From positions 2,480,001-2,544,000 of the forward strand of contig NZ_AP022582.1 of the NCBI RefSeq assembly GCF_010731595.1: 64,000 bases of DNA. The letters run 5' to 3'. Below the pieces are notes generated by a model. It did not search any database, was not told where the DNA came from, and saw only the letters and a program-made list of their open reading frames with translations. Shown here one piece after another: positions 4,364 through 52,361 of this stretch; the first letter of the stretch is position 1, and every line of letters starts with the position of its first letter. A program made the position numbers and the translations under genes. This stretch comes from Mycobacterium seoulense. GTDB taxonomy: Bacteria; Actinomycetota; Actinomycetes; Mycobacteriales; Mycobacteriaceae.

Positions 4364-6040
4364 CTAGTCGCGCGTGAGCTTCCGGTGGGTCACTCTGTGC
4401 GGCCGCGCCGCATCGACCCCGAGCCGTTCGACCTTGTTCTCCTCGTAGGCGCCGAAGTTGCCCTCGAACCAGAACCACTTGGCCTCGTTGTCCTCGTCGC
4501 CCTCCCACGCCAGGATGTGCGTGCAGGTGCGGTCCAGGAACCAGCGGTCGTGGGAGATCACCACCGCACAGCCCGGGAATTTCTCCAGGGCATTCTCCAG
4601 CGAACCCAGGGTCTCGACGTCGAGGTCGTTGGTCGGCTCGTCGAGCAGGATCAGGTTGCCGCCTTCCTTCAGCGTGAGCGCCAGGTTCAGCCGGTTGCGC
4701 TCGCCGCCGGACAGCACGCCGGCCGGCTTCTGCTGGTCTGGCCCCTTGAACCCGAACGCGGAAACGTAGGCGCGTGACGGGATCTCGTTCTGGCCGACCT
4801 CGATGTAGTCCAGCCCGTCGGAGACCACTTCCCACACGGTTTTCTTGGGGTCGATGCCGGCGCGGGACTGATCCACGTAGCTGAGCTTGACGGTCTCCCC
4901 GACCTTGACCGTGCCGCTGTCCGGCTGCTCGAGCCCGACGATGGTTTTGAACAGCGTGGTCTTGCCGACCCCGTTGGGGCCGATGACCCCGACGATGCCG
5001 TTGCGGGGCAGGGTGAACGACAAATCCTTGATCAGGGTGCGCCCGTCGTAGCCCTTGTCGAGGTGGTCTACCTCGACGACGACGTTGCCCAGCCGCGGCC
5101 CGACCGGGATCTGGATCTCTTCGAAGTCGAGCTTGCGCGTCTTCTCCGCCTCGGCGGCCATCTCCTCGTAGCGCTGAAGGCGGGCCTTGCTCTTGGCCTG
5201 GCGCGCCTTGGCCCCCGACCGGACCCAGGCCAGCTCCTCGGTGAGCCGCTTTTGCAGCTTGGCGTCCTTGCGGCCCTGCACCGACAACCGCTCGGCCTTC
5301 TTCTCCAGATATGTCGAGTAGTTGCCCTCGTAGGGATACGCGCGGCCGCGGTCGAGCTCGAGGATCCACTGGGCGACGTTGTCCAGGAAGTACCGGTCGT
5401 GGGTCACCGCCAGCACCGCGCCCGGGTAGGCGGCCAGGTGTTGTTCGAGCCACTGCACGCTTTCGGCGTCCAGGTGGTTGGTCGGCTCGTCGAGCAGCAA
5501 CAGGTCGGGCTTGGACAACAGCAGCTTGCACAGCGCCACGCGGCGCCGCTCACCGCCGGACAGATTCGTCACCGGCTCGTCCGGCGGCGGGCAACGCAGG
5601 GCGTCCATGGCCTGCTCCAGCTGCGAGTCGAGGTCCCAGGCGTCGGCGTGGTCGAGGTCCTCCTGCAGCCGGCCCATTTCCTCCATCAACTCGTCGGAGT
5701 AGTCGGTGGCCATCAATTCGGCGACCTCGTTGAAGCGGTCCAGCTTGACCTTGATCTCGCCGAGCCCCTCCTCGACGTTGCCGCGCACCGTCTTCTCTTC
5801 GTTCAGCGGCGGCTCCTGCTGCAGGATGCCGACGGTGGCCCCGGTGGCCAGAAAGGCCTCGCCGTTGTTCGGCTTGTCCAGCCCGGCCATGATCCGCAAG
5901 ACGCTCGACTTGCCGGCGCCGTTGGGGCCGACAACACCGATCTTGGCGCCCGGGTAAAAGCTCAACGTGACGTCGTCCAGGATCACCTTGTCGCCGTGCG
6001 CCTTGCGGACCTTTTTCATCGTGTAGATGAACTCAGCCAT
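4364..6040 (-). CDS. ettA: Energy-dependent translational throttle protein EttA (ABC-F ATPase)
   Basis: A 558-residue soluble ABC-F protein that acts at the ribosomal E site and couples ATP/ADP ratio to translation elongation. Two ABC cassettes are present. The first has Walker A GPNGAGKSS near residue 40, signature LSGGERRR and Walker B LLLLDEPTNHLD. The second has GPNGVGKTT near residue 355, LSGGERNR and LILLDEPTNDLD. There are no membrane segments, so it is not a transporter although often annotated as one. A start 57 nt upstream is open, but the ATG at 6040 (MAEFIYTMKKVRK) matches the family N-terminus and the 558-aa length of Rv2477c. It lies between ssb and gdh, all on the minus strand. 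The function comes from the E. coli EttA family. Confidence 0.95.
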   Translation of the reverse strand: MAEFIYTMKKVRKAHGDKVILDDVTLSFYPGAKIGVVGPNGAGKSSVLRIMAGLDKPNNGEAFLATGATVGILQQEPPLNEEKTVRGNVEEGLGEIKVKLDRFNEVAELMATDYSDELMEEMGRLQEDLDHADAWDLDSQLEQAMDALRCPPPDEPVTNLSGGERRRVALCKLLLSKPDLLLLDEPTNHLDAESVQWLEQHLAAYPGAVLAVTHDRYFLDNVAQWILELDRGRAYPYEGNYSTYLEKKAERLSVQGRKDAKLQKRLTEELAWVRSGAKARQAKSKARLQRYEEMAAEAEKTRKLDFEEIQIPVGPRLGNVVVEVDHLDKGYDGRTLIKDLSFTLPRNGIVGVIGPNGVGKTTLFKTIVGLEQPDSGTVKVGETVKLSYVDQSRAGIDPKKTVWEVVSDGLDYIEVGQNEIPSRAYVSAFGFKGPDQQKPAGVLSGGERNRLNLALTLKEGGNLILLDEPTNDLDVETLGSLENALEKFPGCAVVISHDRWFLDRTCTHILAWEGDEDNEAKWFWFEGNFGAYEENKVERLGVDAARPHRVTHRKLTRD

Positions 6041-6121
6041 GCCGCGGGTATGCCTTTCTGGTTCTTTGAGAAAGCTCTCGCCGACCATCCTAGGCACCGC
6101 GCGGGAAGCCGGATCCCGCAG

Positions 6122-6604
6122 CTAAGCCGACAGCGGCAGCGGTCCCGTTGCGGCGGACTCGACGCTGTCGCCGGCGTCGGCGTCCTCACCAGTGGCGTCG
6201 GTCGCATCCGTCGCGGGCGTGGTGGCGTCGCCGGCGGTCGGGCCGGCATAGCCCGGCCGCTCGATGCGCACGATCGCGCGGGACACATCGGGCCCGACCG
6301 AGGTGGCACGCATCTCCAGCGACGAGCGGCGGTTGCCGTCACGGTCCTCGTACTCGCTGGTGTAGACGTGACCCACCACGATCACCGGCGCACCCTTGCC
6401 CAGCGCGGCGCCCACGCCGGTGACCAGCTTGCCCCAGCAATTGACGTTGATGAACAGCGAGTTGCCCGGCTCCCAGCCGCCGTCGGCGGTGCGCCGCCGG
6501 GAATTGCTGGCGACGCGGAACTTGATGACCTCCTGGGTGCCGACCTGCCGGCGCTCGGGGTTGTTGACGATGTGGCCGACGACCGTTAGCGGGGTTTCGA
6601 ACAT
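6122..6604 (-). CDS. ssb: Second single-stranded DNA-binding protein (SsbB type)
   Basis: A 160-residue OB-fold ssDNA-binding protein. The N-terminal two thirds carry the fold (MFETPLTVVGHIV, then FRVASNSRR, NCWGKL and GKGAPVIVVGHVYTSEYEDRDG). The C-terminal tail is Thr/Asp/Ala rich and ends TGPLPLSA. It lacks the acidic DDDxPF-type tip of the replicative SSB, which supports a paralogue specialised for stress or recombination, as described for mycobacterial SsbB. An in-frame ATG lies 20 codons upstream, but AAGGAAGGG sits about 9 nt before the ATG at 6604, which decides the start. The protein corresponds to Rv2478c by sequence and context. It ends 81 nt before ettA. Confidence 0.88.
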   Translation of the reverse strand: MFETPLTVVGHIVNNPERRQVGTQEVIKFRVASNSRRRTADGGWEPGNSLFINVNCWGKLVTGVGAALGKGAPVIVVGHVYTSEYEDRDGNRRSSLEMRATSVGPDVSRAIVRIERPGYAGPTAGDATTPATDATDATGEDADAGDSVESAATGPLPLSA

Positions 6605-6758
6605 TGGAATGATCCCTTCCTTGATTGCCATGGGCGGCGAACGCGCCGCCGCACGTCCTGGCACCTATGAAGCGCGACGCCCCCGACGGGCCGGCCGGGT
6701 GCACGGGCCCGAATCGGGCGGTGGCCGCCGCCCCTGTGGAAAGAACCGCGTCTGTGGA

Positions 6759-8827: not shown

Positions 8828-11185
8828 CTACCGAGGCAGGCGTTCCTGACGCGCCTTGAGCTCGCGGGCGACGAACTGGTCGCGGGCGATCCGCCCGACG
8901 CGATCGGAATCCCGCAAGATGTCCCGCAGCTCACGCCGGAACGCGCTCCGCCGTTCGGCGAGATCGGGCGCCGGTGCGATCAGGTCCTGATCGCCGACGA
9001 CCTGGTATGCGGTGGCGAACAGCAGGGTCGACACCGATTCGCTGCTGCGGACGCGGGTCTGCGCCACGTATTGACGGCCCACGCCGAGCGCCGATTCCGT
9101 CAACTTCTGCTGACCGACGTCGGGCGGTGCATCCCGCAGCACGTCGGCGACGATCTCGTAGGCCTCGAAGAACACCCGCAGCATCGCGTCCGCCATCAGC
9201 GGACGCTTGGCGAACAGCAACGCGTCGATCTCGTCGCCGCCGGCGGCGACGTGGGCTTCCCAATCGTCGTGCCATGCCATCTCTGCGGCGATGTTGTCCC
9301 GAAACGCCGCCGAGTCCGCGAAGTAGAAGTCGAACTTCAACAGGTCACGCAGCCGCATCGCCTGATCCCAGAAGGCCTGCATGCGGTCGCCCTCGGCGTG
9401 GCGGGCGTGTGCCAGCGCGAGCTCGACGATCGAGGTCTCCAGGAAGGCGTGGATGAGTGAGTTGCGGTAGAACGCCGCCTCGTGCTGTTTGGCCGGGGCG
9501 ATGTGCCACACAGGCTCCCGGCCGCCGTCGACCCGGGTGATCGGGTGCCCGTTGGACAGCGCGTCGACCGCCGCCCGCACCCCGTCGCGCGAGCGCAGCC
9601 GCAGCGCGCTGGTGGACATCGGGGTTTGTTTGCGTTCCAGATAGTCGAGCGAATCCTGCAGGGTGTGGTGCAGCTGATCGAGGGTCAACGCCGCGCCGCG
9701 AGTGGTCAGCAGCAACGCGCAGACCAAACCCGTCGCCGTCACCGGCGTCGCCTGCAAGATCCGCCACGCGACCTGGAACGACATCTTCTGCAGCGCAAGG
9801 CGTTTGGCGTCCCGGTCGTGGGCCAGCGGACCGTGCGCCGGACCCAGGTACTGGCGCATCGAGACGGCCTCGGGGAAGCGGACGTAGATCTTGCCGTAGT
9901 TGCGTTCGCCCTGCGCCCTGATGAAGTTGTACAGCCAGCCAACGCCTTCGGGCGTCTTCTGGCCACCGCGGGCGTAGGCCGCGTACTCGTCGGTCTCGTG
10001 CAGCTGGTCGAAGCTGATCGACACCGGCTGCAGCAAGATGTCCTCGCTGCGGCCGTCCAGGTAGGCGTCGGCGACGTAGGCGAGCAGGCCGAGTTTGGGG
10101 GGCAGCATCTTGCCGGTGCGCGACCGGGTGCCCTCGATGGACCAACTCAGGTTGAACCGCTTCTCGACGATGTAGCCGACGTATTCGCGCAGGACGTATT
10201 TGTAGAGCGGGTTTTCGCCGATGTTGCGGCGGATGAAGATGACGCCGGACCGGCGCAACAGCGGACCCATCGCGCCGAACGACAGGTTGATCCCGGCGAA
10301 CACGTGCACGGGCGGCAGCCGGTTCTCCTGCATCGCCACCGGGACCACCGCGCCGTCGATGTAGGACCGGTGCGAGAACAGCAGCACCGCCGGGTGGGTC
10401 TCCAGGGCGGTGCGCATGGCCGCCACCTGATACCCGTCGTAGTCGATCTCCGGATCGAATCCGCGGCTGAGCATCCTGCTGAGGACGGAAACGAGGTCGA
10501 CGGACACCCGGCTCCAGCCGGTGGAGAGCTCGTCGAGCATCTGGCCGGCTTCCTCGACGGTTGCGCCGGGGATCTTCTTCAGCCCGGCGCGAAACCGGCT
10601 GGACTCCAAGATCTCCGGCTTCACCAGTCGCGGTGACTTGTACTGCGGCCCCAGGATTCGATATTCGACGCGTTCCAGCGCCAGCAGGGCGCGGCGGATG
10701 ACGAAGCGGGCGAAGTCGCTCTCGTTCTCGCCGACGGTGATGTCGCGCCACTGCTGGTGCAGTTCGGAAACCTTCGCCGGCTCGCCGGCCACCACCCGCG
10801 CCCGTTGCGGGGCGTTGCGCACGATGTGCTGTTGCTGACGTTCGTTGGGCTGGTAGGGATCCCGCCCTGGGAGCAGGCCGGCCAGCTTGGCGATCCTGCC
10901 GCGATCCGGCGGCGGCAGCCAGAACACCCGCACCGGCACGATGGAGCGGTCGTCGGTGGCGTCGTCGCCGGCCCCGAGCTGCTCGATGAGCGCGCTCAGC
11001 GCATCGGGCGCCGCGTGCGGCGGCGGCAGTTCGAGGACGTCGAACCTCGCCTCCGGCTTGTCGCCGCGCTGTTGAGCCATCCAGGCCGTCACCAGTTCTC
11101 GCTCGACCGGCGAGGCCATCGACGCCAGCACCAGCGCGTCTTCGCCGGTCAGGACCGCGGTGGTATCCGCGGCCGGTTCGGTCAC
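8828..11185 (-). CDS. plsB2: Glycerol-3-phosphate acyltransferase PlsB2
   Basis: Transfers a fatty acyl group to sn-1 of glycerol-3-phosphate, the first step of phospholipid and triacylglycerol synthesis, at the membrane. The protein has 785 residues; Rv2482c has about 789. Acyltransferase motifs are present in order in the middle of the chain: HRSYID (the HX4D motif, around residue 268), then [12 protein letters not shown], then [11 protein letters not shown] (EGTR motif), then [10 protein letters not shown]. No clear N-terminal membrane helix is seen, in keeping with a peripheral PlsB-type enzyme. The ATG at 11185 overlaps the stop of plsC by 4 nt (ATGA), showing translational coupling with the next acyltransferase of the pathway. 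Confidence 0.95.
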
Positions 11186-12915
11186 GGCTGCCCTTCGGGC
11201 GGTTCGGTGTTGACGGCCGCCCCGGCGGGCCGGTGTGCCTCGCCGTCTTTCAGGACGGCCTGGGACTCGTGCGGATTAGCCTGGGCCGGCTTGGCTTTCG
11301 GCGCGGCCTTCTTCGCCGGCGCCTTCTTTACCGTCGCCTTCGAGACACCTTTGGCCGCAGCCTTTTTCGCCGGAGCCTTGGCCTTTGTCGCCGCCTTCTG
11401 CTCGGCGTACAGGTCGGGCTGGGGCAACTCGCCGTCCACAGGCCAGTTGGCCAGCGTGTCCAGATACAGCTGTCGGACCGCGGCGATCCGCTCCGGTAGG
11501 TTCTCGACGGTCCAGTCCTGCACCGAAATCGGCGGAAACACCGCGACATCGACCGTCCCGGGGTTGACGACGGTGGAGTTCCGGGCGGCGACGAGTTCGG
11601 CGTTGCGGATCACGATCGGCACGATCGGGATTCCGGCGGCCATGGCCAAGCGGAACGGCCCCTTCTTGAACGGCCCGACCTCGGTGGTGTCGACCCGAGT
11701 GCCTTCCGGGGCGATCACGATCGAGAGCCCCTTCCTGGCCCGGTCTTCGACCTCGTGCATCGTCTCGACCGCGGCGACGGGATCGTCCCGGTCGATGAAC
11801 ACGCCGTCGAGCAGCTTGCCGAGGGTACCCATGACTGGGTCTTTCTTCAGCTCCTTCTTGCCGACGCCGATCCAGTTCTCCCGCACCAGCGCGCCGGCGA
11901 TCACGGGGTCAACCTGGTTGCGGTGGTTGAAGATGAACACCGCCGGTCGCTGCGCGGTCAGGTTTTCCTGGCCGATGACGTTGAGCTGCACGCCCGTGAT
12001 TGCCAGCGACAGCTGGGAGAAGGTCGAGGTGAAGAAGTTCACGCCGCGCCGGCGGTTGCGGGTCAGCACGCCGATGCCCACGGCGCCGGCGGCGACCGGG
12101 AACATCGAGCCGAAGCCGGCGAGGGTGCGCAGCTGGCGCCGCAGACCCACCGGGCCCCGGCTGCTGAATCGCAGGATCGGCCAGCCGCGGCGCTTGGCCA
12201 CGGCGGCCATCTTGCCCTCGGGATTGGTGGGGCGCGGGTTGCCGACCAGATACATCAGGGCGACGTCCTCGTCCCCGTCGGCGTAGAAGTAGCTGTCCTT
12301 GAGGTCGATGCCATTCTCGGCCGCAAACCGTTGCACCGCAGCAGCTTTGCCCGGGCCCCACAGGATCGGCTTCTGCACACCGCCGGTGAGTATCCCGTCT
12401 TCGGTGGTCTCGAACTTGTTGGTGAGCATGTTCGAGATGCCCAAAAACCGCGCCACCGGGTTCACCTGGATGGTCAGCGCCGAGGAGCTGAGCACCACGG
12501 TGTGGCCGCGCGCGACGTGCGCCCGCACCAGCTCGCGCATCTCCGGGTAGATCCGCGACTCGATCCGCTGCACGAACAGCCGCTCGCCGATCTCCTCCAG
12601 GTCGTCCAGCAGGCGGCCGGCCAGCGCGGCGGCGGCCTTGCCGATGAGGTCCTCGAACTCGATGCGCCCCAGCGTGTGGCTCAGGCCGGCCTGAACCATG
12701 CCGAGCAGCTCGCCCACGCCCATGTCGCGGCGCAGCAGCCGCTCCTGGGTGAGGATCACCGCCGTGAAGCCGGCCACCAGCGTCCCGTCCAGGTCGAAGA
12801 ACGCCCCGATCTTCGGACCCGGTGGGCTGGCCATGATCTCGGCGACCGAGCCGGGCAGGCGCATATCCGCCCCGGCGGCTCCGCGCTCGCCTTCCTGGTC
12901 CTTCCCGGTGCTCAT
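11182..12915 (-). CDS. plsC: Bifunctional HAD-type phosphatase / 1-acylglycerol-3-phosphate acyltransferase PlsC
   Basis: A 577-residue two-domain protein corresponding to Rv2483c. Residues about 33-270 form a HAD hydrolase (FFDLDGTLV nucleophile loop; [22 protein letters not shown]). Residues about 300-510 form a PlsC domain with [12 protein letters not shown] (NHX4D motif) and APEGTRVDT. It is expected to acylate lysophosphatidate to phosphatidate, and the HAD domain may act on a phospho-lipid or phospho-serine type substrate; that second activity is inferred. The last about 60 residues are Ala/Lys rich ([11 protein letters not shown] and similar), like the tails of mycobacterial DNA-binding HupB. 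It overlaps plsB2 and the WS/DGAT gene by 4 nt at each end. Confidence 0.93.
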
Positions 12916-14381
12916 GAGCCCGACACCGTCCGTGCCGAGGTCGCCGGTTCGGTGAACGAGGCGGGCACCGCGCGCGGCGCCCCCTCACCGGCCAGCGCCA
13001 GGATTTCGTCGAAGCCCTCCAGCAGGCATTGGGCGAACAGCGGCTCGTTGCGCACCGCCGCCCTGTCGTAGCGCACGGTGATGGTGCACCACCCGCCGCG
13101 CGAGATCAGGACGACCATCATCGCGACACCCGGCAGTGGGCCGATGCCGTACTGCCGCAACACCTTTGCACCGGCGATGTAGGTGTCTCCGGGGTAGACC
13201 GGGACATTGCTGGCCTGCACGTCGGAGCCGATCACCGAACCGGTGATCCCCTCGAGAACCGCGGTGGGCAGGACGCTGAGCAGTGGGGCGACCGAACCGA
13301 TGATGTTCATCGCGGGCTCGTCGCGGCGCTGCGTCATCTGCGCGCGGATCTTCTTCATCCGCGAAACCGGGTCGACGGTACCGACGGGCGCGGCCAGGTT
13401 GACACCGGTGAACCGGTTGCCGCCGGCCGTGTCGGCTTCGGCCCGCAGGTTCACCGGCACCGCCATCGGCAGCGTGCTGATCGGCACGCCGAGTGCCTCG
13501 TGGTAGCGCCGCAAGGCGCCGCACAGGCCGGCGAGGTAGGCGTCGTTGATCGATCCCCCGCCGGCCTTGGCGGCCCGGTGCAGGTCGGCGAGCGGAATGT
13601 CGATCGCCTCGGTGCGGGTGGCCAGGCTACGCCGGCGCAGCAGCGGCGACGGCTCGGCGGCCCGGTTGAGCACCCGCATGCCCGAGAGGGCGTAGCCGAC
13701 GATTCCGGACACCGTGGACGTCGGCTCCAGGACCACCCGTCCGGCCGCCGATACCGCCCCCGCGACCGCACTCACGACGCCGCCGACCACGGCGGTGGGC
13801 AGGTGGTTAATGCCTTGCCGCATCAGGTCGTTGGGCGTGAGGTCCTGCGGGATGGGCAGCGGGGGCGTCGGCTTTGCGGGAGGGTTGCGCTCGAGGTCAT
13901 AGATTTCGGCGAACATCTGCACCCCGCCGACTCCGTCGGTGACCGCGTGGCTGACGTGCAGCAGCGTCGCGGCTTTCCCGCCGGCCAGACCCTCGACGAG
14001 GGTGGCCGTCCACAGCGGCCGGGAGATGTCCATCGGCGACTGCAGCATCACCTCGGCGAGGTTGAAGACGTCGCGCAGCGAGCCGGGTTCGGCCACCCGC
14101 ACCCGCCGGACGTGGAACTCGAGGTTGAAGTCGGGGTCCACCACCCAGCGCGGCGACGCCGTCGGCAACGTCGGCACGACCACCTTCTGCCGCAGCCGCA
14201 ACACCCGTCGGGAGGCGTTTTCGAACCGGCCCAGAAACTTGTGCCAGTCCGGCGTCGTGTCCAGAAGCTCGAGCGCCATGATCCCCGACCGGGTCCGGGG
14301 ATTCGCTTCGCCCCGATGCATCAGATAGTCGACCGGCCCCAGCTGGTCGGACAATTTCACGACCCCATCGGACTCAGTCAT
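12912..14381 (-). CDS. Wax ester synthase / diacylglycerol acyltransferase (WS/DGAT) family protein
   Basis: A 489-residue member of the mycobacterial triacylglycerol synthase-like family, corresponding to Rv2484c. The N-terminal acyltransferase half contains LLHVSHAVTDGVGGVQM near residue 150. This is the HHxxxDG active-site motif but with Ser in place of the first His; the catalytic second His and the Asp-Gly are kept. The C-terminal half contains NDAYLAGLCGALRRY, PVNLRAEAD and a G-SDVQASNVPVYPGDTYIAGA segment typical of the family. The expected reaction is acyl-CoA-dependent acylation of diacylglycerol or a long-chain alcohol. The ATG at 14381 begins MTESDGVVKLSDQLGPVDYLMHRGE. It is the first gene of the coupled WS/DGAT-plsC-plsB2 unit; a 153-nt gap separates it from lipQ. 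Confidence 0.92.
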   Translation of the reverse strand: MTESDGVVKLSDQLGPVDYLMHRGEANPRTRSGIMALELLDTTPDWHKFLGRFENASRRVLRLRQKVVVPTLPTASPRWVVDPDFNLEFHVRRVRVAEPGSLRDVFNLAEVMLQSPMDISRPLWTATLVEGLAGGKAATLLHVSHAVTDGVGGVQMFAEIYDLERNPPAKPTPPLPIPQDLTPNDLMRQGINHLPTAVVGGVVSAVAGAVSAAGRVVLEPTSTVSGIVGYALSGMRVLNRAAEPSPLLRRRSLATRTEAIDIPLADLHRAAKAGGGSINDAYLAGLCGALRRYHEALGVPISTLPMAVPVNLRAEADTAGGNRFTGVNLAAPVGTVDPVSRMKKIRAQMTQRRDEPAMNIIGSVAPLLSVLPTAVLEGITGSVIGSDVQASNVPVYPGDTYIAGAKVLRQYGIGPLPGVAMMVVLISRGGWCTITVRYDRAAVRNEPLFAQCLLEGFDEILALAGEGAPRAVPASFTEPATSARTVSGS

Positions 14382-49056: not shown

Positions 49057-50799
49057 ATGGGGTTCATCCAGCCGAATCTGCCCGTCGTCGACCTGGCTGA
49101 ATGGAGCAAGCGGAGCCGCGCACAGCGGATCGTGCCGATGGTGCGCCACATCGCCGAGAACGGGTTCGGCACTCCGCTGGTGATGCACGTGATGTACGGC
49201 GCGAAGATCGCGCTGTACATCCTCGGCGGCTGGGTGTTCGGCTGGTGCACGACCGGCATCGGCAGCTTCACGGGCGTCGCCGCGTGGTGGTCGGAACCGA
49301 TCGTGTTCGAAAAGGCCGTGCTGTACACGATGCTGTTCGAAGTCATCGGACTGGGCTGTTGCTTCGGGCCACTGGCCGGCCGTTACTTCCCGCCGATGGG
49401 CTCGATCCTGTACTGGTTGCGGCCCGGAACCATCCGGTTGCCGCCATGGCCCGATCGGGTGCCGCTGACCCGGGGCAGCGTCCGCAGCCCGATCGACGCG
49501 GCGCTCTACGGTGCGCTGCTGGTCTTGCTCGCGATCGCGCTGGTGTCCGACGGCACCGGCCCAATTCCCGCCCTGCACACCGAGATTGGTGTGCTGGCGC
49601 CCTGGCACACCGTCGCGATCCTGGCGGTGCTGGCCGTCGTCGGCCTGCGCGACAAGGTGATCTTCCTGGCCGCTCGCGGCGAGGTCTACGCGCCGTTGGC
49701 GCTGGTCTTCCTGTTCGCCGGGGCGGACTGCATCATCGGGGCCAAGGTGGTCTTCATGGTGATCTGGCTGGGCGCGGCCACCTCGAAACTCAACAGGCAC
49801 TTCCCGTTCGTGATCTCAACGATGCTGGCGAACAACCCGTTCATCCCGTCCGGGCCGCTCAAACGGTCGATGTTCAAGCGTTATCCCGACGACTTGCGGC
49901 CCAGCGCGCTGGCGGGTTTCATCGCCCACTTCTCCACCGCCGTGGAAGGCCTGGTGCCGCTGGCGCTGCTGTTCTCCCACGGCGGCTGGCCGACGGCCAT
50001 CGCCGCGTTCGTGATGATCGTGTTCCACCTGAACATCCTGCTGGCTTTCCCGATGGGTGTGCCCCTGGAGTGGAACGTGTTCATGATCTTCGGGGTGTTG
50101 TCGCTGTTCGTCGCGCATGCCCGCCTTGGGTTGTCCGATCTGGCCAACCCGTTGCCGGTGGTGGTCCTGTTCGCGGTCATCGCCGGAATCGTCGTCGTCG
50201 GAAACCTCTACCCGCGCAAGGTGTCCTTCCTGCCGGGCATGCGCTACTACGCGGGCAACTGGGACACCACGGTGTGGTGCGTCAAGCCCTCGGTCGACGA
50301 GAAGTTCCGCACCGGCTCCCGCGCGCTCGGGCCAATGCAACACCTGCAACTCGAACGCCTCTACGGCTCCAAAGAGGCGACCCTGGTTCCGCTTCACCTC
50401 GCGATGGCGTTCCGCGGGATGAACACCCACGGCCGCGCGCTGTTCACCCTGGTGCATCGCGCGCTGGCCGGCTACGACGAGGACGACTACAACCTGTGCG
50501 AGGGCGAGGTGCTCTGCTCGATGGTGCTGGGGTGGAACTTCGGCGACGGACACATGCACAACGAATGCCTCATCGAGGCGCTACAACAGCGCTGCCGGTT
50601 CCAGCCCGGCGAGGTGCGGGTGGTGATCCTGGACTCGCAGCCCATCCACATCCAGCGCCAGGAGTACCGGCTCGTCGACGCGGCCACCGGCGAATTCGAG
50701 CGCGGCTATGTCGACGTCGACGACATGGTCACCGCGCAGCCCTGGGCCGACGACATTCCGGTACACGTCCAGAGCGGCACGGGCGCCGGCATGACCTGA
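49057..50799 (+). CDS. DUF3556 transmembrane protein
   Basis: A 580-residue protein with about ten hydrophobic helices in its first 410 residues (for example ALYILGGWVFGWCTTGIGSF, FVISTMLANNPFIPSGP, IVFHLNILLAFPMGVPLEW). A soluble C-terminal region of about 170 residues begins YPRKVSFLPGMRYYAGNWDT and ends with GWNFGDGHMHNECLIEALQQ and QPIHIQRQEYRLVDAATGEF. The combination matches mycobacterial DUF3556 proteins; their biochemical role is not established. The ATG at 49057 is preceded by AAGGAG at 6 nt. It is convergent with the Rv2520c homologue, 4 nt apart. Confidence 0.8.
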   Translation: MGFIQPNLPVVDLAEWSKRSRAQRIVPMVRHIAENGFGTPLVMHVMYGAKIALYILGGWVFGWCTTGIGSFTGVAAWWSEPIVFEKAVLYTMLFEVIGLGCCFGPLAGRYFPPMGSILYWLRPGTIRLPPWPDRVPLTRGSVRSPIDAALYGALLVLLAIALVSDGTGPIPALHTEIGVLAPWHTVAILAVLAVVGLRDKVIFLAARGEVYAPLALVFLFAGADCIIGAKVVFMVIWLGAATSKLNRHFPFVISTMLANNPFIPSGPLKRSMFKRYPDDLRPSALAGFIAHFSTAVEGLVPLALLFSHGGWPTAIAAFVMIVFHLNILLAFPMGVPLEWNVFMIFGVLSLFVAHARLGLSDLANPLPVVVLFAVIAGIVVVGNLYPRKVSFLPGMRYYAGNWDTTVWCVKPSVDEKFRTGSRALGPMQHLQLERLYGSKEATLVPLHLAMAFRGMNTHGRALFTLVHRALAGYDEDDYNLCEGEVLCSMVLGWNFGDGHMHNECLIEALQQRCRFQPGEVRVVILDSQPIHIQRQEYRLVDAATGEFERGYVDVDDMVTAQPWADDIPVHVQSGTGAGMT

Positions 50800-51127: not shown

Positions 51128-51604
51128 TTGGCCGAGACCACGCGCCTTGCGCCGGGCGACACAGCGCCCTCCTTCCGCCTGCCCGACGCCGACGGAAACA
51201 CGGTGTCGCTGGCCGATTACCAGGGGCGTCGCGTCATCGTGTACTTCTACCCGGCCGCCTCCACGCCGGGCTGCACCAAACAGGCCTGCGACTTCCGCGA
51301 CAACCTGCACGAACTCGGCGGAGCCGGGCTCGACGTCATCGGGATCTCCCCCGACAAACCGGAGAAGCTGGCCAAGTTCCGCGACGCCGAGAAGCTGACG
51401 TTCCCCCTGCTGTCGGATCCCGATCGCAAGGTCCTGACGGCCTGGGGCGCCTACGGCGAGAAGCAGATGTACGGCAAGACCGTGCAGGGCGTGATCCGCT
51501 CGACCTTTGTGGTCGACGAGAAGGGCAAGATCGCCCTCGCGCGGTACAACGTCAAGGCAGCACATACGTCGTCCTTCATCAAAAAGCTGTTCAGTGCCTC
51601 GTAA
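51128..51604 (+). CDS. bcp: Peroxiredoxin Bcp with altered C-terminus
   Basis: A 158-residue thiol peroxidase that reduces hydroperoxides. The peroxidatic and resolving Cys lie five residues apart in STPGCTKQACDFRD, typical of the BCP/PrxQ class. LTAWGAYGEKQMYGKTVQGV and RSTFVVDEKGK are conserved. The likely start is the TTG at 51128 with AAAGGGG upstream, which gives the Rv2521 length. The expected tail after NVKA is missing: here it reads AHTSSFIKKLFSAS, whereas the tail I recall for M. tuberculosis Bcp (GHVAKLRRDLSV) is present at 52323-52361. The protein is therefore a fusion of bcp with a foreign end. The fold should be complete, but the last helix is different. Confidence 0.88.
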   Translation: MAETTRLAPGDTAPSFRLPDADGNTVSLADYQGRRVIVYFYPAASTPGCTKQACDFRDNLHELGGAGLDVIGISPDKPEKLAKFRDAEKLTFPLLSDPDRKVLTAWGAYGEKQMYGKTVQGVIRSTFVVDEKGKIALARYNVKAAHTSSFIKKLFSAS

Positions 51605-51730
51605 TTGATTCGCGGTCGTCACGTGTGTGGAAAGGGACCATCGGCCCTACAGAACGCCGAGGTCGCAGCGCATTCTTGATGCCGAATCATCCACGACTGA
51701 CTTGCGTCAGCCATTCCTTGGGGAGCGATC

Positions 51731-52063
51731 ATGGCAGAAGCCACCGAGAAGAAGCCGTCGGCGGCGGAACGTGCGTCAGACCTGACACAACGAGCGGCAA
51801 GCCTGTCCGATGAAGTGCTCAAGTCGGTCGAATCCGGACAACGGACCGCTATCGATGCCGTACGCAAGTTCGTTGGCGCTGTCGACGAGTCGTTGCCCGG
51901 GCACGGCGACGACCATCCGTCGAGACGCAATACGATCGTCGACGCCGCCCTCGATATGGCGGACAAGCTCGTCAAGACGCAGTACGAGTTCATTCGTAGC
52001 GTCGTCAGCAGCGCGAGCGAGACGCTGAAGAAGCAGGGCGACGAGAAGCCAGGCGCCGAGTAA
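51731..52063 (+). CDS. Small helical (phasin-like) protein
   Basis: A 110-residue hydrophilic protein that should be almost wholly helical: AEATEKKPSAAERASDLTQR, EVLKSVESGQRTAIDAVRKF and LDMADKLVKTQYEFIRSVVS are amphipathic segments. The layout resembles phasins or granule/lipid-droplet coat proteins, but the similarity is only by type. The ATG at 51731 has GGGGAG about 6 nt upstream. It lies inside the DNA that separates the body of bcp from its lost tail, so it probably came with that insertion. No signal peptide or membrane helix is present. Confidence 0.6.
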   Translation: MAEATEKKPSAAERASDLTQRAASLSDEVLKSVESGQRTAIDAVRKFVGAVDESLPGHGDDHPSRRNTIVDAALDMADKLVKTQYEFIRSVVSSASETLKKQGDEKPGAE

Positions 52064-52124
52064 GTCGCGCTGCCTACTCGCCAGGGGTTGTCGGTGGTTC
52101 GACACCGGACTCCGCGCGGACAGC

Positions 52125-52322
52125 TACGAATAACCGCCGAGTACGCGCCTCAAGACGACGGTAGCGTGCGTGTCGATAACCGGTGCATCGACAAGAACGG
52201 TGCACCGCTGCGGGCGATCGGTCGTGCAACCCAGGTGAACGGCCGGGCGGGGAAAGTTGGAGGTGTCGTTCCTTCCGCAATTCCTGCGGTGGATCCCCTT
52301 CACCAAAGGTGACTACTGGGGT
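52125..52322 (+). pseudogene. Lipocalin (Blc-like) remnant with one frameshift
   Basis: One frame encodes ITAEYAPQDDGSVRVDNRCI followed by DKNGAPLRAIGRATQVN (from 52130). The next frame encodes GKLEVSFLPQFLRWIPFTKG then DYW (to 52319). Together these are the central strands of a bacterial lipocalin of the Blc family. A single extra G in the run GGGG at 52249-52252 accounts for the shift. The N-terminal part and everything after GDYW are missing. The second frame continues directly into the orphan Bcp tail. It cannot make a functional lipocalin. Confidence 0.7.
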
Positions 52323-52361
52323 GGGCACGTCGCCAAACTGCGCCGCGACCTGTCGGTCTGA
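52323..52361 (+). pseudogene. Displaced 3' end of bcp (GHVAKLRRDLSV and stop)
   Basis: Codons GGG CAC GTC ... GTC TGA encode GHVAKLRRDLSV, identical to my recollection of the last 12 residues of M. tuberculosis Bcp. It lies about 720 nt beyond the stop codon of the present bcp and is in frame with the second half of the lipocalin remnant. This shows that the insert landed within the last 13 codons of bcp. Confidence 0.75.

Follow-up and report, generated by a model that had tools for sequence, protein, structure and literature searches.

The bcp gene of Mycobacterium seoulense, which encodes a thioredoxin-dependent thiol peroxidase of the PrxQ type, was analysed within a stretch of 64,000 nucleotides (contig NZ_AP022582.1, positions 2,480,001 to 2,544,000; hereafter the window). 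The encoded protein ends NVKA-AHTSSFIKKLFSAS (full ending ...YNVKAAHTSSFIKKLFSAS-stop), and the canonical Bcp tail, GHVAKLRRDLSV-stop, is found intact further downstream, behind a gene for a small phasin-like protein and a lipocalin pseudogene (Table 1). A reading made from the window alone (the sequence-only reading) had proposed that an insertion split bcp and displaced its tail, which it equated with that of M. tuberculosis Bcp, that the left end of the insert replaced the C-terminus, and that the insert brought in the small gene and the lipocalin. Comparison with other genomes supports this proposal and suggests that the window holds one member of a recurrent class of insertions at the 3' end of bcp. 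Genomes are labelled G### and loci L###; G000 is the genome of the window, and the paired labels are G080 (L120), G036 (L121), G113 (L122), G044 (L021), G200 (L168), G069 (L186), G134 (L134) and G369 (L217).

Table 1. Features of the bcp locus in the window, and integrase genes at two related loci (dN/dS, ratio of nonsynonymous to synonymous substitution rates)
Feature	Position	Strand	Basis
bcp (thioredoxin-dependent thiol peroxidase, PrxQ type), substituted C-terminus AHTSSFIKKLFSAS	51128..51604	+	NF006960 (NCBIfam) above cut-off, E 5.5e-49; tail set against those of 80 named loci
Insertion core TACAACGTCAAGGC in bcp, encoding YNVKA	51545..51558	+	Part of bcp; second copy at right ends of inserts elsewhere
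P'-like left end of insert, encoding substitute Bcp tail and stop	51559..51604	+	Same position and type elsewhere; 14/21 match to 21-bp consensus
Cargo gene 1: 110-aa helical, phasin-like protein	51731..52063	+	dN/dS 0.10-0.44; weak Pfam matches below cut-off only; 254 homologues at E<=1e-5
Cargo gene 2: lipocalin pseudogene	52076..52320	+	Partial Lipocalin_2 match; alignment; intact 171-aa copy in G080
Later deletion junction, lipocalin joined to displaced bcp tail, right-hand core lost	52320..52323	.	G080 longer here by ~250 bp, including a second core
Displaced canonical Bcp tail GHVAKLRRDLSV and stop	52323..52361	+	92% identity over 39 bp to uninterrupted bcp of L011
Large serine integrase, L168	12565-14241
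Large serine integrase, L186 (oriented)	11874-13538

The substituted tail of Bcp

The window's bcp starts with a TTG codon that aligns with the start of its homologues, and its product has both the peroxiredoxin family profile and the catalytic region, in which PGCTK (residues 47-51) is invariant across 30 Bcp sequences. We compared 80 named bcp loci, taken from mycobacteria, Nocardia, Rhodococcus and others. The canonical, GH-type tail is present at 72 and is therefore the usual and probably the ancestral form. The remaining eight differ from the same codon onward, with an AHT tail at L010, L017 and L021 and tails of AHA, ANT, SST, AGT or AGA at L048, L053, L058, L059 and L081; the tail of the window thus belongs to a recurrent alternative. 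A relative with an uninterrupted gene, which the sequence-only reading had suggested seeking, is the closely related Mycobacterium sp. E3251 (L011), whose bcp ends ATGHVAKLRRDLSV and whose DNA aligns with the window up to position 51558 and resumes at the displaced tail.

Cargo and decay of the window's cassette

The phasin-like gene, judged by dN/dS over 21 pairs from seven sequences, is under purifying selection and is a real gene. The lipocalin gene has lost its 5' part and its 3' part and carries a frameshift; clear homology spans 52130-52320, and the Lipocalin_2 match (E 1.6e-4) falls under the curated Pfam cut-off; no intact domain is encoded.

The same cassette is present in two other genomes in better condition. 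The order in G080 is bcp with the tail AHTSSFITKLLSAS, a 108-aa phasin-like gene, an intact lipocalin (Lipocalin_2 E 8.6e-43, full length), a second core TACAACGTCAAGGC and an eroded canonical tail. G036 carries the same gene pair in full-length reading frames, with a displaced tail, TTGHFAKLRRDLDV, after a degraded core. Since the extra DNA of G080 includes the second core and the rest of the lipocalin, the right junction in the window stems from a later deletion, which took the 3' part of the lipocalin gene together with the right-hand core and left the lipocalin abutting GHVAKLRRDLSV. The lipocalin decay and this deletion are found in the window and in neither G080 nor G036; the insertion itself is not private to the window. 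The sequence-only reading had placed both breakpoints precisely: the left one is exact, as the insertion is site-specific, but the right one (52320/52323) is not the original breakpoint. Its suggestion that the event was recent finds no support, because a cassette shared with G080 and G036 must be older than the window's lineage or have been gained more than once. That reading had also named similar bcp endings lacking a displaced tail as the observation that would speak against it; such endings do occur in some genomes, for example G044, but G080 and G036 retain remnants of the displaced canonical tail.

The phasin-lipocalin pair is also present in G113, behind a duplicated piece of the bcp tail and the end of an M20 gene. 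At this locus (L122, reversed coordinates ~9201-10411) the phasin-lipocalin unit is flanked by two copies of a segment made up of the bcp tail and the M20 peptidase gene's 3' end; the composite adjoins an insert with a cyclase regulator, and the duplication is larger than at the other loci examined. Ectopic copies of the pair occur in G037 and G054, and of the phasin-like gene alone in G018; no core lies in the 9-10 kb examined around them, and they therefore look like ordinary chromosomal genes. Homology between the ectopic copies and the G080 cassette starts 30 bp past the substitute stop; in the case of the pair it extends as far as the stop codon of the lipocalin gene, ~15 bp ahead of the second core. 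These limits look like the capture of a chromosomal gene pair.

No second copy of the insert was found in the window's own genome, where the best other match is 127 bp at 71% identity, to a phasin-like paralogue, and the rest is at chance level. This paralogue (G000:C1:903944-904070; L131 5945-6232) has 42% protein identity, with no core in the 12 kb examined. A search of plasmid DNA with the insert gave just 51-52 bp matches, to Paracoccus (lipocalin gene) and Novosphingobium, and a phage search with the phasin-like protein gave none. The window's insert contains no integrase open reading frame (ORF).

Recurrence of insertions at bcp

We surveyed 396 genomes of the genus, one per species, for the core followed by an alanine-histidine (AHT-type) tail, with the reversed pattern as control. 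The pattern occurs at 30 places in 27 genomes (reversed pattern, 0/396). In a set of 298 genomes of the order it was found in five, all of the genus, and in none of the 263 outside it (298 minus the 35 counted in the genus). Its first place lies inside bcp in 26 of the 27 genomes. The exception is G325, whose contig stretch lacks bcp and has only an apparent internal site; over 1650 bp this site shares 99.9% identity with unit three of G333. The view that the new tail is a one-off finds no support, given this recurrence, tail codons that follow a conserved DNA motif and cargo that varies among genomes.

Downstream, 19 of the 27 genomes retain the canonical tail in intact or damaged form: on the same stretch in G000, G080, G036, G113, G062, G333, G147, G200, G074, G222, G224, G143, G357, G383, G316, G069 and G325, and on another contig in G078 and G395. 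A recognisable second core stands ahead of it in 15 of the 19 (damaged in G074), that is, in all except G000, G036, G113 and G357. Core-to-core lengths are 551 bp (G143), 555 (G316), 571 (G074), 675 and 991 (G147), 714 (G224), 715 (G062), 833 (G383), 905 (G222), 1030, 4038 and 1464 (G333), 1187 (G080), 12131 (G069) and 12831 (G200), so that 11 of the 15 measured inserts fall within 0.5-1.2 kb. G333 and G147 hold three and two inserts in tandem, with as many occurrences of the core and AHT tail.

Cargo differs from genome to genome. A closely similar 155-aa Cupin_2 cassette (88-93%) is found in G062, G224 and G357, and a different cupin in G383; G333 and G326 share a bestrophin-like gene (92%), and G333 additionally carries a carbon-nitrogen hydrolase and others. 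Further inserts encode Polyketide_cyc2 (G143), a GNAT protein with a 275-aa protein that has no Pfam match (G147), a thioesterase domain (G074) and a cyclase/AAA regulator (G113). Among script-picked ORFs in core-bounded small inserts, 14 of 18 have the direction of bcp. Pfam scans, which cover part of the insert ORFs, revealed no phage, transposase or recombinase domain above cut-off in 14 small-insert proteins and the window's phasin-like protein; PHROGs were searched with the latter only.

Tail types are scattered over a tree of the flanking DNA. In a convenience sample of 55 sequences, 24 with non-canonical tails (some not AHT-type) and without the rows L021, L155, L010 and L184, parsimony requires 18 changes of tail type, 14 or more of them imposed by branches with good support; this is about as many as with shuffled labels (18.2). 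The closest relative of the window on this tree, G224 (flank 95% identical), bears the cupin cassette. The scatter and the cupin of G224 thus indicate that cassettes come and go, or that ancestral arrays were differentially lost; part of the scatter may also come from exchange of the entire locus by homologous recombination.

Anatomy of the insertion site

The left end of the insert, or P' arm, matches the 21-bp consensus GCACATACGACAACAAAGATC at 18-21 positions in nine sites from G333, G147 and the integrase-bearing elements, and at 12-20 positions in eight other sites, listed as G080, G036, G062, G224, G113, G188, G312 and the window (Table 1). Counted over 29 of the 30 places (G325 omitted), its codons are rare ones: GCA, 4% of host Ala codons, is used at 23 sites, CAT (13% of His) at 19, and ACA (1.8% of Thr) at 14 and 18 in two positions. 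In 19 canonical tails taken for comparison, common codons are used. Such codon usage fits a recombination site that doubles as coding sequence, or a foreign origin.

Right-hand and internal sites were measured at 13 places, the set omitting G036, G113 and G357, which have no recognisable core, as well as G325, a copy of G333's unit, and the window. Direct core repeats of 14-30 bp are present at 11 of the 13; at the internal site of G147 the repeat extends into the P' arm, and in G074 the core is damaged.

Serine integrase elements at bcp

The two largest inserts, of 12-13 kb in G069 and G200, each encode a large serine integrase that points away from the right-hand site. The G200 protein has the domains of a large serine integrase (Resolvase N-terminal PF00239 and Recombinase PF07508 above cut-off, zinc-ribbon PF13408 below) and matches phrog_95, a phage integrase family. 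Primase-like proteins and a phage minor tail protein are further products of the G069 insert, and the G200 insert has genes for a replication initiation protein and for the small subunit of a terminase; by virtue of these tail, terminase, primase and replication genes the two inserts look like phage satellites. No capsid gene was found among nine proteins scanned from the two elements, a part of their ORFs. The P arm is common to the integrase elements, with G200 matching the others at 18/19 positions and G069 at 16/19.

When the best candidates (at most three per genome) were scored in all 396 genomes at E<=1e-60, integrase matches were obtained in 17. Five of these, G200, G395, G078, G069 and G369, form a subfamily with ~60% identity or more over matched parts, and in all but G369 the integrase starts beside a core and canonical Bcp tail. 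AHT tails occur in 4/5 genomes with the subfamily integrase and in 23/391 others (Fisher p 8e-5). Three of the 12 other matching genomes were checked (G362, G119 and G085; 43-50% identity) and have no core in the 10-18 kb examined.

Discussion

Recurrence, an exact site, varied cargo, stacking, displaced tails and an integrase adjoining the site are directly visible in the DNA compared here. The occurrence in 27 of 396 genomes, together with second cores, displaced tails and diverse cargo, argues that the 3' end of bcp is a recurrent docking site. We hold recurrent site-specific insertion at bcp to be highly probable, and the fuller account, in which mobile DNA of mycobacteria docks there site-specifically and includes integrase elements, to be probable. 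Inserts would enter at the core TACAACGTSAAGGC, which encodes YNVKA, and the left end of each would provide an in-frame substitute for the C-terminus, by which Bcp would stay complete. The old tail would be shifted downstream, usually behind a repeated core. Satellite-like elements of 12-13 kb carry the large serine integrase adjoining the right-hand site, and small inserts of one or a few ordinary genes, which share the core and P' arm and stack in tandem, would probably be moved by such an integrase in trans or be descended from its elements. On this account the window holds one such cassette, with phasin-like and lipocalin genes, that has since decayed. Whether a serine integrase is the mover of the small cassettes we judge to be evenly balanced. 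A bcp-anchored, integron-like system, in which one-sided attachment (att) cassettes, consisting of a core and a P' arm that doubles as code for the Bcp tail, are captured, stacked and exchanged through serine integrase supplied in trans by satellites, is a tentative proposal that we hold with less confidence.

Several observations weigh against this account. No displaced tail was seen in eight of the 27 genomes (G364, G063, G340, G188, G326, G312, G044 and G112). The small inserts have P' and no P arm, whereas a serine-integrase substrate would have both arms represented across its ends: no P arm was detected at p<0.05 at any of the 13 right-hand or internal sites (smallest p 0.15), and seven of the 13 resemble the bcp (B) arm instead (p<0.05, uncorrected for 13 tests). 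The right ends of small inserts are thus unlike plain attP x attB products, and we infer, rather than observe, their movement by this integrase. The missing P arm is the main gap of the integrase reading, although the two kinds of insert are tied together by the P' arm. P and P' show weak inverted symmetry (11, 12, 14 and 12 of 20, with 120, 29, 2 and 143 of 2000 shuffles as high), and a search of viral contigs for the free site, which did not extend to phage and plasmid records, gave no exact match. Among the best candidates scored (at most three per genome), the genome of the window has no related integrase, and G333 and G147 have none at E<=1e-60. Finally, the G369 integrase (G369:C15:84-887) has no core in its 6.3-kb contig, possibly because it is integrated elsewhere or because of a contig join.

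Two alternatives dispense with insertion. A displaced tail could be left if bcp had been duplicated in tandem, or another bcp acquired, and the 5' part of the second copy had then been deleted; G134 does contain two tandem bcp copies, the first of them truncated. Random deletions would, however, scatter over ~430 bp, whereas Bcp similarity ends 0-16 bp upstream of the right-hand core at all 13 sites; duplication was set aside on the strength of these right ends, all close to the core, and as it also leaves the P' arm and the tandem cassettes unexplained, we regard it as highly improbable. It is only slightly less improbable that canonical and AHT-type tails are two ordinary bcp alleles spread by homologous recombination, the downstream genes being incidental indels. 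The eight AHT-type genomes without a displaced tail would suit this explanation, as would G044, in which the M20 gene starts within 168 bp of the core, but the canonical tail is kept downstream in the other 19, behind a second core in 15 of them, and the internal AHT tails of G333 and G147 are detached from bcp. Homologous exchange may nevertheless spread finished cassettes.

Other alternatives accept the site and dispute the mover. The small cassettes might be what is left of serine-integrase elements after deletion of the integrase, and not independently mobile, an explanation that the core and P' arm common to both kinds of insert, and the decay of the window's own cassette through deletions, would favour. 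Yet the small inserts have right ends at the core and ordinary genes, with no phage, transposase or recombinase domain among the scanned proteins; similar cassettes occur in different species and three are stacked in G333; and the P arm, which a remnant could keep, is absent at 13/13 sites. We consider this rather unlikely, and somewhat more so that a different mechanism acts on the same site, such as a host recombinase or a transposition event that duplicates 14-30 bp of the target. The direct repeats at 11 of 13 sites, variable in left extent, do resemble target duplications, and the P arm is missing; but small cassettes and integrase elements have in common a bordering P' arm, a candidate half-site for recombination, and no transposase domain was seen in the scanned small-insert proteins.

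Relation to known systems

The closest known kind is that of the islands in rlmH, the staphylococcal and Enterococcus cassette chromosomes (SCC and ECC), among which tandem composites and recombinase-less units occur. According to PMC6222049, both use large serine recombinases and insert at the 3' end of rlmH, ECC repeats are ~50 bp, and many ECC genes are found elsewhere in genomes too. The likeness to these CcrAB systems lies in insertion at the 3' end of a conserved protein gene, a large serine recombinase, direct-repeat att sites and variable cargo: at bcp, 14-30 bp repeats bound the insert at 11/13 sites with the target kept in frame, the right one having been lost in the window. The differences are that the target is bcp wherever the insert's bcp end could be read, that the large inserts have one integrase (matching phrog_95) rather than a CcrAB pair, that many cassettes are of 0.5-1.2 kb, often with one gene, the small units lacking one att arm, and that the last codons of bcp are swapped for different sequence.

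Integron cassettes resemble those at bcp in that each unit has one or a few genes and its own recombination sequence and that units stack at a single site, and at bcp 14/18 ORFs read with the target gene; however, the bcp site is intragenic and protein-coding, and the longest array has three units. Integron-type capture is not known to be prominent in mycobacteria. In Acinetobacter, pdif modules (XerC/D) are described, in PMC6449649 and other papers, as small gene modules between short recombination sites without a recombinase of their own, a likeness to the small cassettes; the bcp docking site, by contrast, is chromosomal and lies in a peroxiredoxin gene. Mycobacterial serine-integrase prophages and candidate phage-inducible chromosomal islands (PICI) are described in PMC10654092, whose main text has no match for peroxiredoxin. 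The G200 and G069 elements resemble PICI-like satellites in their integrase, their primase or replication genes and their terminase small subunit or minor tail gene, and differ in the capsid result given above. No report of bcp as an integration site was among the top matches in the open-access literature, the scope of the search, which excluded subscription papers and preprints.

What appeared to be a one-off gene break thus becomes a recurrent hot spot at which small ordinary genes come and go. Such a hot spot would go some way towards accounting for the traffic of accessory genes in mycobacteria. The finding also indicates a serine integrase for which a chromosomal target can be predicted, and raises the question of whether one-armed sites can be used by a serine integrase for moving cassettes. 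Because the reading frame is preserved, we infer that Bcp with a substitute tail stays active, and it is plausible that the cargo is expressed from the bcp promoter. In AlphaFold models both tails form a short C-terminal helix (residues 144-156 in the window form, 147-156 in the canonical L011 form), but with predicted local distance difference test (pLDDT) values of just ~57-64 these helices do not prove function. The repeated replacement of the C-terminus suggests that this core peroxiredoxin is tolerant of it.

Additional observations

At L134 (~5400-6700) the first of the tandem bcp copies is cut after GKTVTGV, upstream of the core. In three relatives (L121 6529-8097, L179 2514-3890 and L169 3910-5289) the DNA separating the bcp region from the M20 gene contains related genes of ~460-520 aa that look P450-like by eye; the window has none there. 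In Mycobacterium genavense (L032 2304-3316), the counterpart of window positions 49057-50799 looks broken, aligning in separate pieces with a large internal gap.
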